From Methanomassiliicoccales archaeon (GTDB lineage Archaea; Thermoplasmatota; Thermoplasmata; Methanomassiliicoccales; UBA472), in the NCBI GenBank assembly GCA_013415865.1, contig CP058896.1, forward strand, positions 393,957 through 457,956: a stretch of 64,000 nt of DNA, read 5' to 3'. Positions 7,092 through 22,163 of this stretch are shown piece by piece. The notes under the pieces are model-generated. The model worked only from the letters and a program-made list of their open reading frames with translations, ran no database searches and was not told the DNA's origin. The position numbers and the translations under genes were made by a program. Numbering within the stretch: the stretch's first letter is position 1; the number at the start of each line of letters is the position of its first letter.

Positions 7092-7787
7092 TCATAGCAT
7101 CTCGGCGCCCTCATGCACAACGATGCCGCCATTAGTTATCTGGTAAGGAGTGATCCTTCTGGAGTGCTTGGTCCTCCTCATCTTGATGATGCGGAGCGAC
7201 AGCTGAAGCTCGTTCTTGTCATGTCTCTCCTCATAACGGAGGGATATGACCCCATCGGATACATACTCCACAAGGCCATCCCTCGACGCCAAGGGATTGT
7301 CGTCCTTGACCTCGGCCGTCATCAGACAGGTGGCGCCCGCCTTTTTGATCATTTGGGACAGGTTGAACATGTTAGCCCTTCTTTCGTGCTCGGTGTCGAA
7401 GAGCATGTTTAGCAGGGAGATCGAATCGACGACTATCCTGGACGCACCGAAGGACCTGATGAAGTCGGGAAGCTCGCTCTTGATCCGGGAAATGGTGGAC
7501 TTGGCGTCGTTGGGTTCGAGCTTGACTATGTAAAGTTTCTGCGAGTCGATGTATGGTCTCAGGTCCCATCCATGAGAGGCCGCATCTGACAAGATGGACT
7601 CCTGGTCCTCCTCTAATGAGATGTAGATGCCTTTTTCTCCCTGGGAAAGCCCTTGGTTCAAGAACTGGAGACCAAACGTTGTCTTTCCGGTACCGAAAGA
7701 GCCCATGACCACGAAGGTCTCGCCCTTCGGCACACCCCCTTCGAGCATGCTGTCCAGCCCCTCCACTCCTGTCCTGACCCTTTCCAT
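7092..7787 (-). CDS. KaiC-like RecA-superfamily ATPase with intact P-loop
   Basis: 231 residues forming a single KaiC/RecA-type ATPase domain. It starts with the typical RTGVEGLDSMLEGGVPKGE, followed by Walker A GSFGTGKTT, YISLEEDQESI, and Walker B IVVDSISLL. Archaeal KaiC homologues act in signalling and motility control (for example ArlH), but none of those partners is present here. The gene starts 4 bases after a second KaiC-like gene whose P-loop is broken. The two are surely co-transcribed and may form a hetero-oligomer in which only this subunit hydrolyses ATP; this is inference. Confidence 0.83.
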   Translation of the reverse strand: MERVRTGVEGLDSMLEGGVPKGETFVVMGSFGTGKTTFGLQFLNQGLSQGEKGIYISLEEDQESILSDAASHGWDLRPYIDSQKLYIVKLEPNDAKSTISRIKSELPDFIRSFGASRIVVDSISLLNMLFDTEHERRANMFNLSQMIKKAGATCLMTAEVKDDNPLASRDGLVEYVSDGVISLRYEERHDKNELQLSLRIIKMRRTKHSRRITPYQITNGGIVVHEGAEML

Positions 7788-7791
7788 AGTA

Positions 7792-8655
7792 TCACGCGAT
7801 CCTCTCTGTATCGATGACGACCAGCCCGCTCTGGGCTGTCACCGTAGTGGCGAACCTCGCCACGCGTTCCTTGTCCAAGTGCGGTAGGATGCTCATGAAT
7901 TTCTCCACGTGAATGTACCGCTGCCTCCTTGATGAGGTACCGACCTTGCTCCATTCGAAGACCAATGCCCCGTCGACCGAGTCCATTATCATCCTCTGTT
8001 TTTTCTCGTCAACGACGTCCTTCGTCATCAATAGATAGATGACCCCTCCCCACTTCTTCGATATCCTCTGCATGCCCTTGAGCACCGCTATCAGGTCTTG
8101 GACCTCGATCTTGGTCGAGAGCAGGAGGTCAGTGAGCGAGTCTATTATCACCATGTTCCCCTTGGCATTCTCGTCGAGATATGTCACGAGCCCTTCCAAG
8201 AGATTCTCTTCGCCGTTATTGCTGAACAATGCTGACGCTCCCTCTCCCGTCCATCCCCTTGGTACAAGGGTCTGGCGGAAGTAGCTGTTGGAAAAGTCCT
8301 TGAAGATGACGTTCTTGGCGAATGATTCATAGAAATCGGAGTTAAAGGACATCTTTATCTCCTGGAGGATGTCCTCTTTCGACCTTGAGAAAGTGACGTA
8401 ACATATCTTGTCCGGCATCAATTTCTCTCTCAGCATCGAGCCGAGGTAGAACGTCGCGCTCTCCGGTGATTCTTTCACAATGCTCAGCTTTGCCGCGGAG
8501 GTTATGACATATTCGTTCTGACCTGCGCCCAGGTCGCCGAGCAACAGCACGACCGAGCCTGGCGGCATACCCCCCTTGATGATGCTGTCGAAATCCGCTA
8601 CGCCTGTCGGTATCCGTCCCCGTGGAGCTCCCATCCCACGACCTCGCCAGGACAT
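7792..8655 (-). CDS. KaiC-like protein with degenerate Walker A motif
   Basis: 287 residues with KaiC-like architecture: RIPTGVADFDSIIKGGMPPG at the N-terminus and a Walker B-like MVIIDSLTDLLL. The P-loop position reads GDLGAGQN (residues 40-47), so the lysine and the following Ser/Thr of a normal GxxGxGK(S/T) are Gln and Asn. The C-terminus (LPHLDKERVARFATTV...TERIA) resembles the extra tail of archaeal signalling ATPases of this family. ATP hydrolysis is unlikely without the lysine, so a regulatory or nucleotide-sensing subunit is inferred. It is first in a two-gene unit with an intact KaiC-like partner 4 bases downstream. Confidence 0.78.
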   Translation of the reverse strand: MSWRGRGMGAPRGRIPTGVADFDSIIKGGMPPGSVVLLLGDLGAGQNEYVITSAAKLSIVKESPESATFYLGSMLREKLMPDKICYVTFSRSKEDILQEIKMSFNSDFYESFAKNVIFKDFSNSYFRQTLVPRGWTGEGASALFSNNGEENLLEGLVTYLDENAKGNMVIIDSLTDLLLSTKIEVQDLIAVLKGMQRISKKWGGVIYLLMTKDVVDEKKQRMIMDSVDGALVFEWSKVGTSSRRQRYIHVEKFMSILPHLDKERVARFATTVTAQSGLVVIDTERIA

Positions 8656-11964: not shown

Positions 11965-14181
11965 ATGAGGTTGGAAGAACTGGGCCTATCACCGGGCGTG
12001 ATGGGGGTGCTCAAGGAAGATGGCATAACCGAGCTCTATCCACCGCAGGTGACGTCGGTCCCGATCGCGTTGTCCGGGAAGAACCTGGTCGTTGCCGTCC
12101 CGACCGCCTCTGGTAAGTCCCTTATAGGTTATCTGGCAGCCACCAAGCATGTCCTTGAGAAAGGAGGGAAGGTGATGTACATCGTCCCCCTGAGGGCCCT
12201 GGCGGCAGAGAAATTCGAGGACCTGAAGAAGTTCGAGGCCCTGGGCATAAAGGTGAGCATGTCGGTAGGCGACTATGATGAACCAGATAAACACCTGAGG
12301 AATGCCGATATAATAGTGGCGACCTCGGAGAAGGCGGACTCCCTCCTGAGACACCGGGGGGAATGGCTATCGTCGATATCCCTGGTGGTAGCGGACGAGG
12401 TGCACCTCATCAACGACCCTGAGAGGGGGCCAACGCTCGAGGTGACATTGGCGAAGCTCATGCGGTTCGGCCCCAAGGTCCAGATAATCGCATTGTCGGC
12501 CACGGTCCGCAACTCATTAGAACTTGCGGCCTGGCTCCATGCAGAGCATGTTTCAAGCGGATGGAGACCTGTTAAGCTGAAGGAAGGGGTCTTTACCGAT
12601 GGGGTCATACGTTTCACGGACAACTCGAAGAAGAAGGTCCCATTGGAGGAGGACCCCGTTTGGAGCCTGGTCAAGGATTCATTGTCGAGCGGGGGACAAT
12701 GCCTGGTCTTCGTCAACACCAGGAGGTCTACGGAATCGATGGCCTCGAAGTACGCCAAGCTCATGGGGCAGCTGGCCGTGGGGGCCCCAGAGGAGGGAGA
12801 ACTGAAGGAGATCGAGGGAGAAGGGGAGCGCACATCGATTGCGGCAACATTGAGATCTTGCCTCAAGAAAGGAGTGGCCTTCCATCATGCCGGGCTCACC
12901 CACGAGCAGCGCCGATATGTGGAGTCGAATTTCAAGAAAGGGAGGATAAAGATCATCATTGCCACGCCCACCTTGGCCGCCGGCATCAATCTTCCCGCGA
13001 GAAGGGTCATAATCCGGGACGTCCAAAGGTTCGAGGAGGGGGGCTATGTGCCGATCCCTGTCATGGAGATAAAGCAGATGTGCGGACGGGCCGGGCGTCC
13101 GCGATATGACACCGAGGGCGAGGCGATCGTCATTGCGAAGAACGAGGATGATGCGAGCTTTATCTTTGACAATTACCTTTTGGCAGAGCCAGAGGACGTA
13201 TTCTCGAAACTTGGACAGGAGACCGTCCTAAGAGGTCATGTTCTCTCGAGCATTGCGACCGAGACGGCGAGGTCGTGGAGCTCTTTGATGGAGTTCCTCT
13301 CGTCCACTTTTTTCGCCCATCAATCTGACATATCCGAGATCGAGGATGTCGCCCGCGATATCATCTCCTTCTTACATAAGGAGGGGATGATCGTCGTGGA
13401 TGGTGATGATTACAGGGCCACCTTCTTCGGCCAGAGGGTCAGCGACCTTTACATCGACCCGTTGACCGCGGTAAAGCTCCGTGATTCACTGAGAAGGTAT
13501 GAAAGGGGCATGGGCCACTTCGGCTTCCTACATGCGGTCTGCGCGACCCCCGATATGTCGAACATCTACGCGAGGAAGAATGACCTGGAATGGCTCGAGG
13601 TGCTCGTGTCAAAGAGGTGCAAGGACCTGCTCTGCGATATCCCCGAGGATGATGAGTACGATTTCTTCCTGTCCGAGTTCAAGACCGCCATGACTCTTGA
13701 AGAATGGATCGAGGAGACGGATGAAGAAAAGATACTCGATGTGATGGGGATCGGCCCCGGCGACCTGAGGAACAAGGTGGAGCTGGCAAAATGGCTCTTG
13801 TATTCTATGAGAGAGCTAGCTGGCATATTCAACCGGGAGGCCTATCCTGTCCTCACGGACCTCATGAAAAGGATGGAACATGGAATAAGACCTGAGCTTC
13901 TGGACCTTGTAAGGTTGAAGGGTATCGGAAGAGTGCGAGCAAGATCGTTGTATAATAAGGGTTTCACAACGGTCGAGGCGATATCAAAAGCGGACGTCAG
14001 GGCCCTGGCCAATGTCATCGGCATCGGGGAGACTCTCGCCCGGAACCTTAAGGAACAGGTCGGGGGGCCATTGGAAACATCAAAAGAGGGCCCTATGGAT
14101 ATAAGCCGTGTGAACGATGGCAACGCGGAGGAAGGAGGTCAGAAAAAGGTGCATAAGCAGACCTCCATATCCGATTTTTAG
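11965..14181 (+). CDS. Hel308 superfamily 2 DNA helicase with C-terminal PIP-box
   Basis: 738-residue 3'-5' DNA helicase for stalled replication forks. Motif I is VPTASGKS (45-52), motif II DEVH (144-147, DExH type), ALSATVRN is motif III, and QMCGRAGRPRYD is motif VI. After the RecA domains come the winged helix and ratchet domains, and a helix-hairpin-helix (LKGIGRVRARSL...IGIGETLARNL) near residues 650-700. The extreme C-terminus QTSISDF (732-738) fits the PCNA-interacting consensus Q-x-x-I-x-x-F. The ATG at 11965 is the first in frame. Its TAG stop overlaps the convergent KaiC-like gene by 4 bases. Confidence 0.94.
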   Translation: MRLEELGLSPGVMGVLKEDGITELYPPQVTSVPIALSGKNLVVAVPTASGKSLIGYLAATKHVLEKGGKVMYIVPLRALAAEKFEDLKKFEALGIKVSMSVGDYDEPDKHLRNADIIVATSEKADSLLRHRGEWLSSISLVVADEVHLINDPERGPTLEVTLAKLMRFGPKVQIIALSATVRNSLELAAWLHAEHVSSGWRPVKLKEGVFTDGVIRFTDNSKKKVPLEEDPVWSLVKDSLSSGGQCLVFVNTRRSTESMASKYAKLMGQLAVGAPEEGELKEIEGEGERTSIAATLRSCLKKGVAFHHAGLTHEQRRYVESNFKKGRIKIIIATPTLAAGINLPARRVIIRDVQRFEEGGYVPIPVMEIKQMCGRAGRPRYDTEGEAIVIAKNEDDASFIFDNYLLAEPEDVFSKLGQETVLRGHVLSSIATETARSWSSLMEFLSSTFFAHQSDISEIEDVARDIISFLHKEGMIVVDGDDYRATFFGQRVSDLYIDPLTAVKLRDSLRRYERGMGHFGFLHAVCATPDMSNIYARKNDLEWLEVLVSKRCKDLLCDIPEDDEYDFFLSEFKTAMTLEEWIEETDEEKILDVMGIGPGDLRNKVELAKWLLYSMRELAGIFNREAYPVLTDLMKRMEHGIRPELLDLVRLKGIGRVRARSLYNKGFTTVEAISKADVRALANVIGIGETLARNLKEQVGGPLETSKEGPMDISRVNDGNAEEGGQKKVHKQTSISDF

Positions 14182-14903
14182 AAGTCCGATATCGCCCTGG
14201 TGACAAAAAAGTTCTTGTCCTTGTAATAGAACGAATAGTGGGTGCTGGAATGCTCTGTCTCTCTCATCTTCACGCATCTCAGCCTCCTTTGCACGTCCGT
14301 CTCCCCGACCTCGACCATCTTCAAATGCAAGATGCCATCGGCCAGGAAATCCTCGTCCTTACCGCCATAGTATGAGAAGGCCCCGACCGGCATCTCGCAG
14401 ATGATGAAAGTGGTAAGGTCCATGCTCTTCAACCACTCGAAAAGCCTGAAAATGTTCTCTCTTGGCTCAGGGAACTTTGCGATCAGGTTGAGCGCCCCAA
14501 GGGAGTCGATGACCAAGAGCTGGTAGTTCATTCTCTTCTTCGATTCCTCGATGGCGAACTTGAAGGTGTCCAGCCATTCATCGCCCTCTGTCTTGAGGCG
14601 CAGCTGGCCCAGGTCCAGGATCTCCACTTTCCCTTTCGTCCCTTCGACGAACCCGAGATTGTGCATCTGTCTCAGGAGGCTCGGCCTGCTCTGCTCCAAG
14701 GATACATATAGACCAGGTATGCCCTCGTGGACGGCATTCCTGAAGAGCATATGGTAGGCTATTGACGATTTCATGGTGCCAGCTGAGCCCGCGATGAGAA
14801 CGACGTTGCCCTCCGGGATGCCTCCGGAGATGTTCTCATCAAACCCATGTATGTAGGTTTTAAAACGTCTCCTCTGTTCCATTTCCTTCCCCGATACTGC
14901 CAC
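14178..14903 (-). CDS. KaiC-like RecA-superfamily ATPase (third paralogue)
   Basis: 241 residues. The opening FKTYIHGFDENISGGIPEGN is typical of KaiC-domain proteins. Walker A is GSAGTMKSS, with Met before the lysine, as in several archaeal members; YVSLEQSRPSLL and Walker B QLLVIDSLGAL follow. It is distinct from the 7-8.6 kb pair and stands alone, convergent with Hel308. The role is unknown; a nucleotide-dependent signalling switch is the usual assumption. Its last residues ISDF resemble the Hel308 tail, but the required Gln is absent. Confidence 0.82.
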   Translation of the reverse strand: MAVSGKEMEQRRRFKTYIHGFDENISGGIPEGNVVLIAGSAGTMKSSIAYHMLFRNAVHEGIPGLYVSLEQSRPSLLRQMHNLGFVEGTKGKVEILDLGQLRLKTEGDEWLDTFKFAIEESKKRMNYQLLVIDSLGALNLIAKFPEPRENIFRLFEWLKSMDLTTFIICEMPVGAFSYYGGKDEDFLADGILHLKMVEVGETDVQRRLRCVKMRETEHSSTHYSFYYKDKNFFVTRAISDF

Positions 14904-17245: not shown

Positions 17246-17740
17246 ATGATGCGAACTTTCTACCTTCGTGGAGGAAGGGGGAGGGCAATAGAACCATCTG
17301 TTCTAATCAAGGATGTCCAGAGCAGATTGGGGAATGAGGCCCTATGTCTCGATGCGGACCTTGTCTGTGGGGCAGAGCATATAGGGTCGGCCGTATATCA
17401 CGCTGAGAGGGCCTTCAATTATGGTACTAATTCCTCTGACTCCTTTGCCATGGAGGTCCTGCTCTATGCCTCTGGGGAGCGTCAGCTCTCGAAGGCCATG
17501 TCGAAGATGAGCGTGAAGACCGGGGATGTGAATGTCGCCATACTTACCTTTGATGGGGGGGTCAGTGATGATATGATGAGAGACTGGCGCATCACCCCGG
17601 ACAGCAGCGTCCTCGGATTTACCATCGCCAAGGCAAAAAGGTTCGGGATCGGACCGTTGGAGGTGTCATCCGTTCCCTTAGGAATGCTCCAGGACCTTGT
17701 ACTTGAGAGGGTTGCGTTCGTAGATGTTATCAAGCGTTGA
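17246..17740 (+). CDS. cgi121: KEOPS complex subunit Cgi121
   Basis: 164 residues of the Cgi121 family, a KEOPS subunit that binds tRNA during N6-threonylcarbamoyl-adenosine (t6A37) synthesis. The clearest signature is SDSFAMEVLLYASGERQLSKAM, followed by VKTGDVNVAILTFDG. No other KEOPS gene (Kae1, Bud32, Pcc1) lies in the window. A TATA-like CATATAATC at about 17219 sits some 25 bases before the ATG, suggesting a nearly leaderless mRNA. ATG at 17249 is an alternative start. The giant helical-repeat gene begins about 100 bases downstream on the same strand. Confidence 0.87.
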   Translation: MMRTFYLRGGRGRAIEPSVLIKDVQSRLGNEALCLDADLVCGAEHIGSAVYHAERAFNYGTNSSDSFAMEVLLYASGERQLSKAMSKMSVKTGDVNVAILTFDGGVSDDMMRDWRITPDSSVLGFTIAKAKRFGIGPLEVSSVPLGMLQDLVLERVAFVDVIKR

Positions 17741-17843
17741 GACCCTCAAGCTTTCTGGCAATTGATCCTTGTGAAAGCTGATTAATATTCAGTAGAGAAT
17801 ATCCATCACATAATGGTCATGACCGACCGGGTGGTAGCAAGGT

Positions 17844-20800
17844 TTGCCTGACGACTTCATCAAGCAACTTCAGCTCTCAAAGCAGATAGAGCAAAAGGCA
17901 AAGGAGGCGGCACAGGACCGCAAGGCCTCTGAGAAAAGCCTGGCCGAGGCGGAGGCCGAGCTGGCGAAGATCAAGGCCAAATTAGGCAACGTTGAGGAGG
18001 CCGAGAAGCTCTTGGCCATGGCAAGGGAGGCGTTCAAGGATAAAGACTACAAAAGATGCCTGGCGATGTCAGAGGAGAGCATCAAGGCATCGAAGAGCGA
18101 GATGGTCAGATGGGTCGAAGAAAGGTTCGGGTCCACCAGACAGCTTTTATCGGTCCTGCAGGAGAGCGGCGTGAATGTGACCGATGTCTCGGCCCTTCTT
18201 CAGAAAATATCGGGACCGCTAGGCCGAGGAGATCTGGATGAGGCCGTGGCGGCCTCCTCAGAGGCCTATGACAGAGCTGTCGGTCTGGCCAAGGACGTGG
18301 TCTCAAGCCTTGTGTCCGAAGGGAAAAAAGAGTCGGAGGTCCTCAGCGAACGGTCATTGGATATGGCCGAGGAAGTGGCAAAGCTGAACAAGGCGGAGTC
18401 TTTGCTCAGCTCTGCCGACTATCTTTCCGCGATACGGGAGGCCCAGAACTCCGTAAATTCGTTGAGGGGGAAGTTCAGGTCATACTATCTGTCGAGGGTC
18501 GAAGAAATCAAGAGAAGGATGATGTTATGGCCTGGAAGGGGGCTTGAAAAGGTACAGATGGCCTTGGACAACGCCATCGCGAGGATGGAAGCACATGAGA
18601 TAGAAGATGCATTGATAGAGCTGGGCGCGGTGGAGGAGAGCGTCAACAGGTCTATCGCCGAAGCAGTGAGGGCGCATCTTGATATCCTTGCCAGCAGGAC
18701 GGCCACCGTCGGACAGATGGGCATGTTCACGAGAGAGGTCGTCAGGACCATCGAGGAGGCCCGGACCGTCCTTGAGCAGGGAGACCTTGTTCGAGCGATA
18801 GAGGTGGTGAAGGTGGCCGACGAGCTGCTCAGGGATCTGGGGTCAGAGCTCGTGGCGAGAGAGCTGCTCAGATCAAAGGTCCAGTTGCAGATAGCCATGA
18901 CGGTCGGGGCCGACCTTGTCCCAATGGCAAAAGAGATGGAGTCCGCAAGAGGATTTGTATGGCAAGGAGATTTCGCTTCGGCGGTACAGTCCGTCATCAG
19001 GGCCAGGGATGCTCTCGAACAGAGCATTTCAGGGTATCAAGACCCGGCGGCCCGTTTGATGGAGCTCAAACTTGCTGTCGCAAAGGCAGAGTCGCTTGGG
19101 CTGAACGTTGCCGATGCTATCCGGGCCTCGTCATTGGCCAGGAAAGCTGTCCTGCAAAAAGACTACCACAGGTCCTCAGAGATGCTCAAGGACGCTGCCA
19201 GAGAGGTCCATAACAGCATACACGCCTTCTATGGTAAACAAATAATGATGATAGAGATGGGACTGGCGACGGCCTTGAGGATGCAAGGGGACGTTTCCCT
19301 TGAGTCGGACAACCTGGACCAGGTGGTCGCAAAGATCAGGGCGAATGAATATACTGTTGTCGAGGAGGAGCTGAAACGTCTTTCAGAGGGCGTCGAGCTC
19401 ATAATCAGGGACCTGGCCGAGAGGGCCGTGGAAGAATCCAGGAAGATCATCAATGAGTACGAAGGTCCGACGGACAAGGTCGGGCCCACGGCAAAATTGG
19501 CAGAAGCGGACATGGCGATCGCTGAGGGAAAATTCCCTGAGGCCTATGACCTGGCGGTCGAGGCCGTCTCATTATTGAGGAGGGAGGAGAGCGAGCTCAT
19601 CGGGTCGAAGTTCGAACAGGCGGAAAGGCTCCTCACGATCATGGTCGAGCTAGAATGCGAGAGCAAGATGCTCAGGTCGAAATTGGAAAGGGCCAAGGAG
19701 CTCAACGCCTCAGGGGATGTCGCTGGAGCTATAAGATTGACCGAAGAGGTAGTCCACTATGCCAAGGACATCATCAAGGACGATGTGCAGAAGGAGATGG
19801 TCAAGGTCAAGAAGGCCATCTCCATCTCAAAGAAAAAAGGAGTGGACGTCGCAGAGGCCGAACGGACCATGAAGGAGGCCTTCGACCTACTTGGGCAGGA
19901 CAGGACCGAAGCGGCATATGAGAGGATGCAGGAGAGCATGGACAAGCTGAAGGAGGTCAATAGACTTCATCACGAGGCCTATGACCTGATAGCGGATGTT
20001 AGAGGGCTCATCAACGAAGCTGCCGCGAAAGGTCTTGATGTCAGCAAGATAGAGGACCGTCTTGACGGTGCACGGTCATTGTTCGAATCGGGGCGTTACA
20101 AGGAATCGATGGATGTCTCCAGGGTAGCGCTGCTTGATATCGAAAGACGGGCGGCGCCCCATATCCTTCCGAGGATCATCGCCGAGGCGAAGGAGATGTT
20201 CGCCCTGGGGCGGAAGATGAAAATCGACACGACGAGGGCGGAGAACGAGCTTGAGAATGCGGAGAGGCTTGTCGGGAAAGGCGACTATGAAAAGGCTATC
20301 GCCATGGTCAAGGAGGCCAGAGGCCAGATCGCGGCCTTGATGTCCGATGCGTTGTCCAGGGACATCTCGGCGGCCCGGGCCGCCCTGGAAAAGAGCGAGA
20401 CCGAGGGAAAGAATGTCGCATCCCTAAGGCTCATGATCGAAAAGGCCGATGGCCAGCTTGAGGACAGGCAGTACAACGAGGCCTGGAGGATAATCGAGCT
20501 CGTGAAATCCGAAATAGACCAATCGACCTTCATGGACGCAAAGGCGTCCGACTATGTCCGGCAGGCCGAGATGGGGATCAAGGACCTGAATGAGATAGGC
20601 ATGGACTCCCCTGCGGCCCAAGAGGTGCTTAGGCAGGCCAGGCTTTTACAGAAACAGGGGAATCTTACTCTGGCCATCGAACTGTCCAAGAAGGCTTTCC
20701 TTATCGCCGCTGAAACGGCAGAAAGGATCGTGACCGAAAGCGTGGCCCGTGCAGAGGAGGAGGCAGGGGTGAAGGGACTGTCGAGCACGGAGATGTCTAC

Positions 20801-22163
20801 TGTCATCGACCTCAGGGAGAGGATCAGGAACGCTGTCACATCGCATCGTTTCAAGGAGGCCGTGATCCTACTTCCATCATTCCAACGGGCCCTTGATGAT
20901 CTGGTAACGAACAGAAAGAGGGCGCTGTCATCACTCTCTGAAGCAGAATCCAAGGTCCCTGACAATAACATTGAAGCTCTCCCTGTCCACCTGAAGGAAA
21001 TGCTCATGAGGGCGAAGAAGGAGCTTGAGGAAGGGTCGTTCATTGATTCGACCGCGACATCGGAGAGGTTCCTGCAGGAGATGGCATCGATCGAGGCGAT
21101 GAGGGCGACGAGGAAGAACGAGATCTTATCCATAAGAGAGGACCTGGAGTTCATAAGCGATGACAGAAAGAGGCGGGAAATAGCGGACCTGGTCGATTCC
21201 GCTGAGGCGCACCTCTCTAAATTGGAGCTGGAAAGAACCTCTTTGTATCTCAGAAGGGCCCGAGCATCGTTGATGGAGGCGACCGGGAGCGAGGTGGGGA
21301 AATGCTTCGAGGACCTTATGCTTCTGCAGAAGATAATCGACCAGCTTGGGTTGCCAAGGCCGGAGCAGGAGGCCCAGAATGGTCAGGCGATCAAGATATC
21401 TGACATAAGGCCTAAGGACCTGGAGAAGCTACGCAGAGAGATAGGGGTGTTCATAAACGCTGTCGCCACGGGGTTGAATTCCCGGCTGGAAAAGGTCATT
21501 GCCAAGGTCCAGGAAGCAGGGGAGCAAGGAAGACCTATAACTGCGAGCATGGCCCTGATCGAAAAGGCCAGGTCGGCAATATCGGGAGAAAGGTTCCCTG
21601 AGGCGATGGAGGCTATCACCGACGCCGAAAGGTTCATAGGTGTTCCAGATGAGGTCATGGAACGTTTCAATTCTGGAAAGGCAGAGCTGATGGAGGTACT
21701 TACCAACATGAGGTCTGACGCCATTGAGGTCGATGACCTGGTCAAAAGGTTGGAGGCTCTGGAAAAGTCCCTGCCTGAAGGACCGGAGGATTCTCTCAAT
21801 GGCCTGATCTCACTAGGTGCCGCCATCAGAGAGCAGATCGAGAACATGAGGCCCTTCATCGATGTTTCTGTGGAATTCATCGATCCCCCGAAGAAGGGGT
21901 CCTGGGGGAAGGCATTGGTCAAGGTACGCAACTCAGGGGGGTCGACGGCCATGCATGTCAAGGTCTCGTTCGGTGAGGAGGTCGAGGTCAAAGGGACCTC
22001 GCTCATCGACCTGCTACCGCCGAGCGGGACAGAGGTGATGAGGGCCGAGATACTTCCATATTTCTCTGGAAGTAAAAAGGTCCCAGTGATGGCAAGATGC
22101 GAGAGCATGATCGACAGGAAAGATATGTCCTTCGAGTCGGGGCTCGAGGTCTATGTAAAATGA
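17844..22163 (+). CDS. Giant helical-hairpin (TPR-like) repeat protein with C-terminal beta-sandwich
   Basis: 1439 residues of unknown function. The N-terminus is coiled coil (residues 1-50, Ala/Glu/Lys-rich). Then at least 15 helix-turn-helix units recur, each built like A-xx-LxxAxxLxxxGDYxxAIxxxxEA, for example AERLVGKGDYEKAIAMVKEA and ARTVLEQGDLVRAIEVVKVA; these resemble TPR or tubulin-cofactor-like hairpins joined by longer helices. The last ~110 residues (VDVSVEFIDPPKKGSWGKAL onward) form a beta-rich, CARDB-like domain. No signal peptide or membrane segment is seen, so it is probably a cytoplasmic scaffold. The start is TTG at 17844, just after an in-frame stop at 17835. Repeat copies differ at DNA level, so expansion is old. 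Confidence 0.8.
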   Translation: MPDDFIKQLQLSKQIEQKAKEAAQDRKASEKSLAEAEAELAKIKAKLGNVEEAEKLLAMAREAFKDKDYKRCLAMSEESIKASKSEMVRWVEERFGSTRQLLSVLQESGVNVTDVSALLQKISGPLGRGDLDEAVAASSEAYDRAVGLAKDVVSSLVSEGKKESEVLSERSLDMAEEVAKLNKAESLLSSADYLSAIREAQNSVNSLRGKFRSYYLSRVEEIKRRMMLWPGRGLEKVQMALDNAIARMEAHEIEDALIELGAVEESVNRSIAEAVRAHLDILASRTATVGQMGMFTREVVRTIEEARTVLEQGDLVRAIEVVKVADELLRDLGSELVARELLRSKVQLQIAMTVGADLVPMAKEMESARGFVWQGDFASAVQSVIRARDALEQSISGYQDPAARLMELKLAVAKAESLGLNVADAIRASSLARKAVLQKDYHRSSEMLKDAAREVHNSIHAFYGKQIMMIEMGLATALRMQGDVSLESDNLDQVVAKIRANEYTVVEEELKRLSEGVELIIRDLAERAVEESRKIINEYEGPTDKVGPTAKLAEADMAIAEGKFPEAYDLAVEAVSLLRREESELIGSKFEQAERLLTIMVELECESKMLRSKLERAKELNASGDVAGAIRLTEEVVHYAKDIIKDDVQKEMVKVKKAISISKKKGVDVAEAERTMKEAFDLLGQDRTEAAYERMQESMDKLKEVNRLHHEAYDLIADVRGLINEAAAKGLDVSKIEDRLDGARSLFESGRYKESMDVSRVALLDIERRAAPHILPRIIAEAKEMFALGRKMKIDTTRAENELENAERLVGKGDYEKAIAMVKEARGQIAALMSDALSRDISAARAALEKSETEGKNVASLRLMIEKADGQLEDRQYNEAWRIIELVKSEIDQSTFMDAKASDYVRQAEMGIKDLNEIGMDSPAAQEVLRQARLLQKQGNLTLAIELSKKAFLIAAETAERIVTESVARAEEEAGVKGLSSTEMSTVIDLRERIRNAVTSHRFKEAVILLPSFQRALDDLVTNRKRALSSLSEAESKVPDNNIEALPVHLKEMLMRAKKELEEGSFIDSTATSERFLQEMASIEAMRATRKNEILSIREDLEFISDDRKRREIADLVDSAEAHLSKLELERTSLYLRRARASLMEATGSEVGKCFEDLMLLQKIIDQLGLPRPEQEAQNGQAIKISDIRPKDLEKLRREIGVFINAVATGLNSRLEKVIAKVQEAGEQGRPITASMALIEKARSAISGERFPEAMEAITDAERFIGVPDEVMERFNSGKAELMEVLTNMRSDAIEVDDLVKRLEALEKSLPEGPEDSLNGLISLGAAIREQIENMRPFIDVSVEFIDPPKKGSWGKALVKVRNSGGSTAMHVKVSFGEEVEVKGTSLIDLLPPSGTEVMRAEILPYFSGSKKVPVMARCESMIDRKDMSFESGLEVYVK

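Follow-up and report, generated by a model that had tools for sequence, protein, structure and literature searches.

Two described systems stand closest to the protein reported here. In PMC4243239, EzrA and spectrin are cytoplasmic proteins made of three-helix bundles set linearly head to tail, with long helices that are joined and shared between neighbors, and with repeats that have diverged. In PMC7587433, Ebh and Embp are elongated chains of small three-helix bundles that share a long central helix, with 126 residues per bundle pair; small-angle X-ray scattering (SAXS) of six 126-residue FG repeats of Embp gave a maximum dimension of 34.8 nm. This study concerns a gene in a 64,000-nucleotide stretch of a Methanomassiliicoccales archaeon genome (CP058896.1, positions 393,957 to 457,956; the whole stretch is called the window, and positions below are counted from its first letter). 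The gene encodes a 1439-residue protein, here termed the rod protein, for which a model resembling both systems is predicted.

The rod gene (17844..22163, plus strand) is an intact open reading frame (ORF) with a TTG start, present in one copy in its 1.82-Mb single-contig genome. Stops stand in frame just 5' of the TTG, and TTG or GTG occupies the same start position in nearly all relatives examined; on the strength of this conserved start the ORF is taken to be real. An earlier interpretation of this DNA, made from its letters only (the sequence-only reading), had placed a 1439-residue ORF here, after Cgi121, and was correct in coordinates, length and position. It had also seen no evident family, and the searches run gave no confident whole-chain match to a characterized one. 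Nothing credible was found in Pfam, NCBIfam, PADLOC or PDB-sequence searches with the window protein or the family profile A1, while family profile A3 matched only helical or designed proteins among PDB sequences (E 0.019–0.1). FIVAR and GA domains were absent from Pfam scans of the window protein (to E 10) and of 21 members (to E 0.05). No description of the protein was found in print by a literature search that lacked most subscription journals.

An AlphaFold 2 model of window residues 2–1200 (the rod model; predicted local distance difference test score, pLDDT, 82.8; predicted template modeling score, pTM, 0.34) is wholly helical. Helices of about 15 residues alternate with helices of about 39 residues, and the spacing between short-helix starts is mostly 59–66 residues. 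Autocorrelation of the profile peaks at lags 126 and 62 (-0.415 and -0.419), both above the best lag in 200 of 200 column-shuffled profiles (maximum -0.463). Model and autocorrelation together point to some 20 units of about 62 residues each (residues 51–1334; 17994..21845, plus strand), predicted to consist of a short helix of about 15 residues, a tight turn and a long helix of about 39 residues. At least 15 related helix-turn-helix units had been claimed for the protein, correctly; structure prediction with repeat detection returned a repeat fold, and a non-repeat fold did not occur. Unit 2 (residues ~113–174) and the stretch ~1170–1230 are irregular, and residues ~90–150 are poorly resolved. 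At the DNA level the repeats are short, weak matches only, so the units have diverged, as had been proposed. A tetratricopeptide repeat (TPR) protein was considered and rejected: of PF13424, PF13181 and PF12895 the best gives E 5.8e-4 and 20.5 bits, below the gathering cut-off of 27.2, and the period is 62 rather than 34 residues.

The two ends of the protein differ from the units between them. The N-terminal long helix (residues 1–44; 17844..17975, plus strand) carries a family motif around QLQLxKQxEQKAKEA and is more conserved in the alignment than any other part of the protein; the coiled-coil N-terminus of the sequence-only reading is replaced in the model by this first long helix of the helical string. 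The C-terminal end (residues 1335–1439; 21846..22160, plus strand) is predicted to form an Ig-like β-sandwich, in keeping with the β-sandwich domain claimed earlier. This assignment is by homology, the window C-terminus aligning with the sandwich of relative L064 (f, g, G and L denote family, genus, genome and locus or sequence handles). In the model built on L064 with its zinc finger included (pLDDT 89.8), the helical pattern continues into the Ig-like sandwich, which is followed by the finger. Structural matches of this sandwich include a transglutaminase C-domain (Z 12.5, root-mean-square deviation 2.1, 99 aligned), TRAP-alpha and a COPI leaf (both Z ~11). CARDB (PF07705) gives no match in a Pfam scan of the window protein itself; it appears at E≤0.05 in 8 of 21 A1 members, and is above cut-off in L048 and L071 among ten class C-termini scanned.

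A feature that the window alone could not reveal is a C-terminal zinc finger in most distant members from the class Thermoplasmata. Its pattern is C-x2-C...C-x-C-G...H-x2-C...C-x2-C, and the window protein has none. It occurs in 28 of the 44 members of the full-length set, all outside Methanomassiliicoccales, and was not found in that set's 15 Methanomassiliicoccales rows or in L121 of f25; among further sequences read it is present in 4/4 from f18 and 0/7 from f14. Prok-RING_1 (PF14446; a C4HC3-type finger) is over cut-off in L048 (31.1 against 29.1) and below it in nine other class C-termini, and the finger of some members scores about equally well as C1, PHD or zf-RING_2. This distribution suggests secondary loss in Methanomassiliicoccales, a polarity that hangs on how the tree is rooted.

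The length of the rod was measured from the conserved Gln of the N-terminal motif to the Pro at the sandwich start in 44 full-length members, a set that leaves out fragments and the f14, f18, f2 and other-class members. It is 1309–1330 residues in 34/44, drawn from 16 handle-families, and 1318–1330 in 30/44, and is kept although identity to the window protein drops to ~20%. Gaps and conservation were assessed in the 32 of these members below 50% identity. Gaps of at least 10 residues within the rod are few and include one-unit deletions at the same place in f9 (60 residues) and f11 (61 residues); the f29 rod is longer by 123 residues, or two units. Other such gaps are insertions of 40 and 10 residues in f20 and a loss of 11–12 in two named Methanomassiliicoccus-type rows, that of L103 being an artifact of a wrong start call. 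Conservation amounts to 2.02 bits per column in the N-terminal 30 residues (against a mean of 1.12), 1.37 in the sandwich and 0.87–1.28 in the units. Conservation that is higher at the ends than in the rod between them is what a spacer working through both its ends would be expected to show.

By sequence matches, the family is nearly class-wide in Thermoplasmata. It was matched in 41 of 61 close-relative genomes and, at 1e-5, in 188 of 300 class genomes, many with ORFs of 1440–1630 residues, a count that includes shorter paralogues. With a profile built on the f14 branch, the gene was detected in 23 of the 27 f14 genomes tried, in 2/2 of f29 and in 0/6 of f22 and f33, and two complete f18 genomes hold a full-length copy. 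Most f2 genomes lack the gene, a diverged copy being kept in two from f2 genus g23; f2 we take to be Methanomethylophilaceae, and f22 Thermoplasmatales. A draw across the phylum gave matches at 1e-10 in 37/244 genomes, class members included, and two proteins of other classes (f37, 3042 residues; f52, 2780 residues) end in the same β-sandwich and finger. The closest named relative is L053, from 'Euryarchaeota archaeon bin.505' (50% identity over the full length), and named relatives include metagenome-assembled genomes of Methanomassiliicoccales, Methanomassiliicoccaceae and Methanomassiliicoccus. No ORF was obtained for L057, and L042 was left out of A2 since its ORF contains X. Single in-frame stops interrupt the rod gene in four genomes (TAG in G079 and G166, TGA in G149, TAA in G138), and may represent sequencing error, decay or recoding.

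Tentatively, and at somewhat less than even confidence, we read the protein as a cytosolic, highly elongated helical-string rod that acts as a fixed-length tether or scaffold between its two ends. Each short helix would pack where one long helix ends and the following one begins, and neighboring three-helix bundles would thereby share long helices. The conserved N-terminal helix would bind one partner and the C-terminal Ig-like domain the other, joined by the RING-like finger in most of the class apart from Methanomassiliicoccales and f14; the rod would set the distance between the two partners. As the turns between helices are tight, the units are taken as hairpins, each advancing the rod by (39-15) helix residues, or 3.6 nm. 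By this geometry the modeled rod would measure 20 x (39-15) x 0.15 nm = 72 nm; scaling from the Embp SAXS value gives ~61 nm, and we infer a length of roughly 60–70 nm. A straight rod, the binding at its ends, the tether role and the cytosolic location likewise belong to this tentative reading. The largest 19-residue Kyte-Doolittle mean of the window protein is 1.06, in line with the claimed lack of a membrane segment; by this hydropathy test, run without a dedicated signal-peptide predictor, no signal peptide and no cell-wall or membrane anchor were found. The cytoplasmic scaffold proposed by the sequence-only reading thus survives as a soluble, non-catalytic, extended one, which fits the helical string, the lack of a membrane segment, the conserved ends and the narrow length. 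The cytoskeletal role that it suggested is no more than an analogy with the layout of EzrA and Ebh. Organization of a large complex is possible, given gene adjacency to SMC-ScpA-ScpB in two groups and to a KaiC-linked coiled-coil gene in f29, neither of which links is seen in the window lineage.

Several observations weigh against this tether or scaffold. Foldseek gives the rod model no match at E≤0.001 (best 0.057), and the pTM is low. EzrA (4uy3; Z 8.9, root-mean-square deviation 7.2, 143 aligned) and EbhA (2dgj; Z 7.9, root-mean-square deviation 7.3, 222 aligned) are among the highest rows of the VIA-align comparison, with EzrA at the top, but helical-bundle Z scores below about 13 may mean a common arrangement only. 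The flanking of ~15-residue helices by ~39-residue ones in the model may reflect a spectrin-like sharing of long helices, for which the EzrA row gives Z 8.9 only. Vinculin, talin and dynein-tail rows, from Foldseek and VIA-align, were read as the same common arrangement and set aside as evidence of kinship. EzrA is spectrin-like yet bent into a semicircle (PMC4243239), so the end-to-end distance of the rod may be shorter than its contour length. Nor is one length kept strictly: the f18 proteins, on inspection, have ~90 residues more, and the related finger-bearing proteins of other classes have 2780–3042 residues. Sandwich and finger are both missing from f14 members, which makes the C-terminal end dispensable there. 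Most of f2 and the sampled f22 and f33 genomes lack the gene and have ScpB. Finally, the gene next to the rod gene (SMC, Cgi121 or a coiled-coil gene) differs between lineages.

Neighbor evidence points different ways by lineage and proves no partner. In the window, Cgi121, a KEOPS subunit (17246..17740, plus strand; PF08617, E 2.8e-8), ends 103 nt 5' of the rod gene. In loci of f1, f2 (g23), f3, f5, f6, f8 and f24 the rod gene also lies downstream of Cgi121, directly or with 1–2 genes between, and near a Hel308-type helicase. Further neighbors, read by eye, are presumably gyrase, FTCD, ThrB and ThrC. A candidate TATA-like element, GATTAATATT (17780..17789, plus strand), was read by eye ~55 nt 5' of the TTG. 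Because GATTAATATT precedes the start in the nearest relative as well, the rod gene is likely transcribed separately in both.

The eukaryotic condensin and cohesin complexes have HEAT-repeat subunits, the HAWKs. The alternative that survives best, doubtful as it is, makes the rod accessory to the SMC-ScpA(-ScpB) condensin of archaea, with another fold in the place of these subunits. SMC, ScpA, ScpB and rod genes stand in a row, co-directional, in 8/8 fetched loci (f19, f23, f25, f27, f28, f31; identities by Pfam in L099), and ScpB lies at most 1 kb upstream of the rod gene in at least 23 genomes. All seven co-directional sequences in the tree fall into a single clade (approximate likelihood-ratio support, SH-aLRT, 99), hence one origin; the tree omits six of the 44 rows (L048, L052, L054, L056, L063, L110) and adds twelve. 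An operon of class-wide extent was accordingly rejected, given this single clade, a gap to ScpB of 54–172 nt against 0–3 nt within the L099 operon (where the rod gene follows SMC, ScpA and ScpB after a further 171 nt) and its lack in the window lineage; in the window genome the SMC operon is ~455 kb from the rod gene. The link is partly restored by f14 genus g45: in 4/4 of its genomes (G079, G097, G166, G239) the rod and ScpB genes converge, and in G097 the whole SMC-ScpA-ScpB trio is present. Among the remaining 19 rod-bearing f14 genomes no adjacency was seen, though contig breaks could hide some cases. The adjacency had either two origins or one early origin followed by an inversion. ScpB itself occurs in 281/300 class genomes, rod-less lineages among them, and no HEAT family was found in Pfam scans of the window protein (to E 10) or of 21 members (to E 0.05). 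PMC7055376 reports no binding of ScpB by the ScpA proteins of archaea that were tested, and archaeal SMC may thus lack a third subunit. The same source places scpB far from scpA in Thermoplasmatales, unlike L126 (G000:C1:862000-881900) and L099, in both of which SMC, ScpA and ScpB are adjacent. For the tether or scaffold itself, the nucleoid with SMC-ScpA-ScpB is the most likely site of action, a placement that we hold weakly.

Somewhat less probable again is a rod that scaffolds a KaiC-like ATPase signaling or switching module, in which the rod and a coiled-coil/zinc-ribbon adaptor (cc) accompany the ATPase. A KaiC-like ATPase gene (PF06745, P-loop GPPGSMKTS) is followed by a cc gene in 5/5 f1 and f6 loci read, and KaiC and cc matches adjoin in many class genomes; in the window genome this pair is ~690 kb from the rod gene. 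In f29 a cc gene lies directly 5' of the rod gene, with 38–40 nt between, but the alignments that relate it to the f1/f6 cc genes are rich in coiled coil (E 1e-8 to 1e-14). Four genomes of f40, in another class, have contiguous genes for an orthologous KaiC (56% identical to that of the window genome, L148), a ~250-residue low-complexity protein and a helical-unit protein of 1755–1772 residues, with a similar arrangement in f57; this helical-unit protein is without the N-terminal motif, β-sandwich and finger, and may be a paralogue. KaiC and/or cc matches also occur ~24–33 kb from the rod gene on the same contig in seven genomes of the SMC clade, and KaiC-like ATPases are multi-copy, with up to at least nine matches per genome. 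Shared absence of KaiC and rod (f2; f22 and f33 genomes without matches) was given no weight, as those lineages may lack many genes.

Three KaiC-family ATPase genes are found near the rod gene in the window (14178..14903 and 7092..8655, both minus strand), that at 14178 having an unusual P-loop, GSAGTMKSS. This MKSS-type gene was tried and rejected as the counterpart of the f40 KaiC, which is closer to the GyrA-adjacent KaiC (56% against 32%). At L155:8336-14762 (G000:C1, ~1096.3–1102.8 kb), two ORFs read by eye as gyrB- and gyrA-like precede a KaiC-like ATPase that has the P-loop GPPGSMKTS, and next comes a coiled-coil protein with a KPVSIRKIIKRK-type basic tail.

The C-terminal finger raises a further and much less likely alternative, a substrate adaptor or E3-like protein in which the helical array takes the substrate, next to an Ig-like domain, and a RING-like finger recruits a conjugating enzyme. 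It draws on the finger in most distant class members and the Prok-RING_1 score of L048; the lack of the finger in the window protein and in all Methanomassiliicoccales and f14 members examined means that it is not the core function, and the comparable C1, PHD and zf-RING_2 scores blur the finger's type. A membrane coat or trafficking scaffold is highly improbable: the order of helical array, Ig-like domain and RING-like finger in relatives recalls the solenoid plus Ig-like 'ear' of adaptins and COPI or the solenoid plus RING of Vps proteins, and a COPI leaf is among the sandwich matches, but neither sequence searches nor Foldseek show the array to be a solenoid of adaptin or Vps type, and many proteins without kinship match the Ig-like fold (Z 11–12.5: transglutaminase, TRAP-alpha, complement).

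Relative to the sequence-only reading, the analysis lends structural support to the scaffold inference and adds that the family is spread across the class, that most distant class members bear the finger, that the unit has 62 residues and is inserted or deleted whole in some families, and that rod length keeps to a narrow range; it also yields two candidates for a partner system. Were the rod reading true, the cytosol of Thermoplasmata would contain a spectrin-like rod of great length, encoded by a single gene in most sampled lineages. It may then be asked what is measured or bridged across ~65 nm in an archaeal cell, and whether the SMC complexes of archaea have another partner. In its furthest-reaching form, which is unlikely, the protein would be a phylum-wide archaeal molecular ruler: a cytosolic, spectrin-like rod of ~65 nm, its unit number under selection, whose Ig-like or RING-like end binds a second site and so tethers SMC-ScpAB there, or else the KaiC-cc ATPase, making it an archaeal counterpart of HAWK or spectrin scaffolds.

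Helical units of this type also occur elsewhere. Class proteins of 1582–2000 residues (L127, L128, L129, L130) have like units and two copies of a C-terminal helical/β-sandwich module; their last ~200 residues may resemble the C-terminal extension of archaeal isoleucyl-tRNA synthetase. The window genome encodes a 353-residue protein with N-terminal zinc ribbons (L131, ~1092 kb) and a 287-residue protein that has a single membrane helix and, at its C-terminus, zinc ribbons (L132, ~535 kb). The f29 genomes (L105, L170) hold further helical-unit proteins, one of ~3400 residues, and many first-look candidates for the family profile. The proteins of 353, 287 and 1582–2000 residues share the unit type and were found by the family profile, whereas their lengths and end domains differ from those of the rod, whose gene family is separate.

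Compared with described proteins, the rod model is like EzrA and spectrin in its divergent repeats and its predicted linear bundles, which may share long helices, but their repeat is ~100 residues, against a unit of ~62 with a 15-residue short helix. The rod protein also has no EzrA family membership and no membrane anchor, and carries an Ig-like domain at its end. It is similarly like Ebh and Embp in its predicted small bundles; those are staphylococcal surface adhesins, whereas the rod is archaeal, with ~20 units, no FIVAR or GA match and no membrane segment. CARDB and Prok-RING_1 are the modules at the C-terminus of class members, and L048 has both above cut-off; the window protein has neither the finger nor a CARDB match. 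Where the HAWK subunits of SMC complexes consist of HEAT repeats, the rod has 62-residue units and no HEAT family, and its possible link to a kleisin is gene adjacency in two groups.

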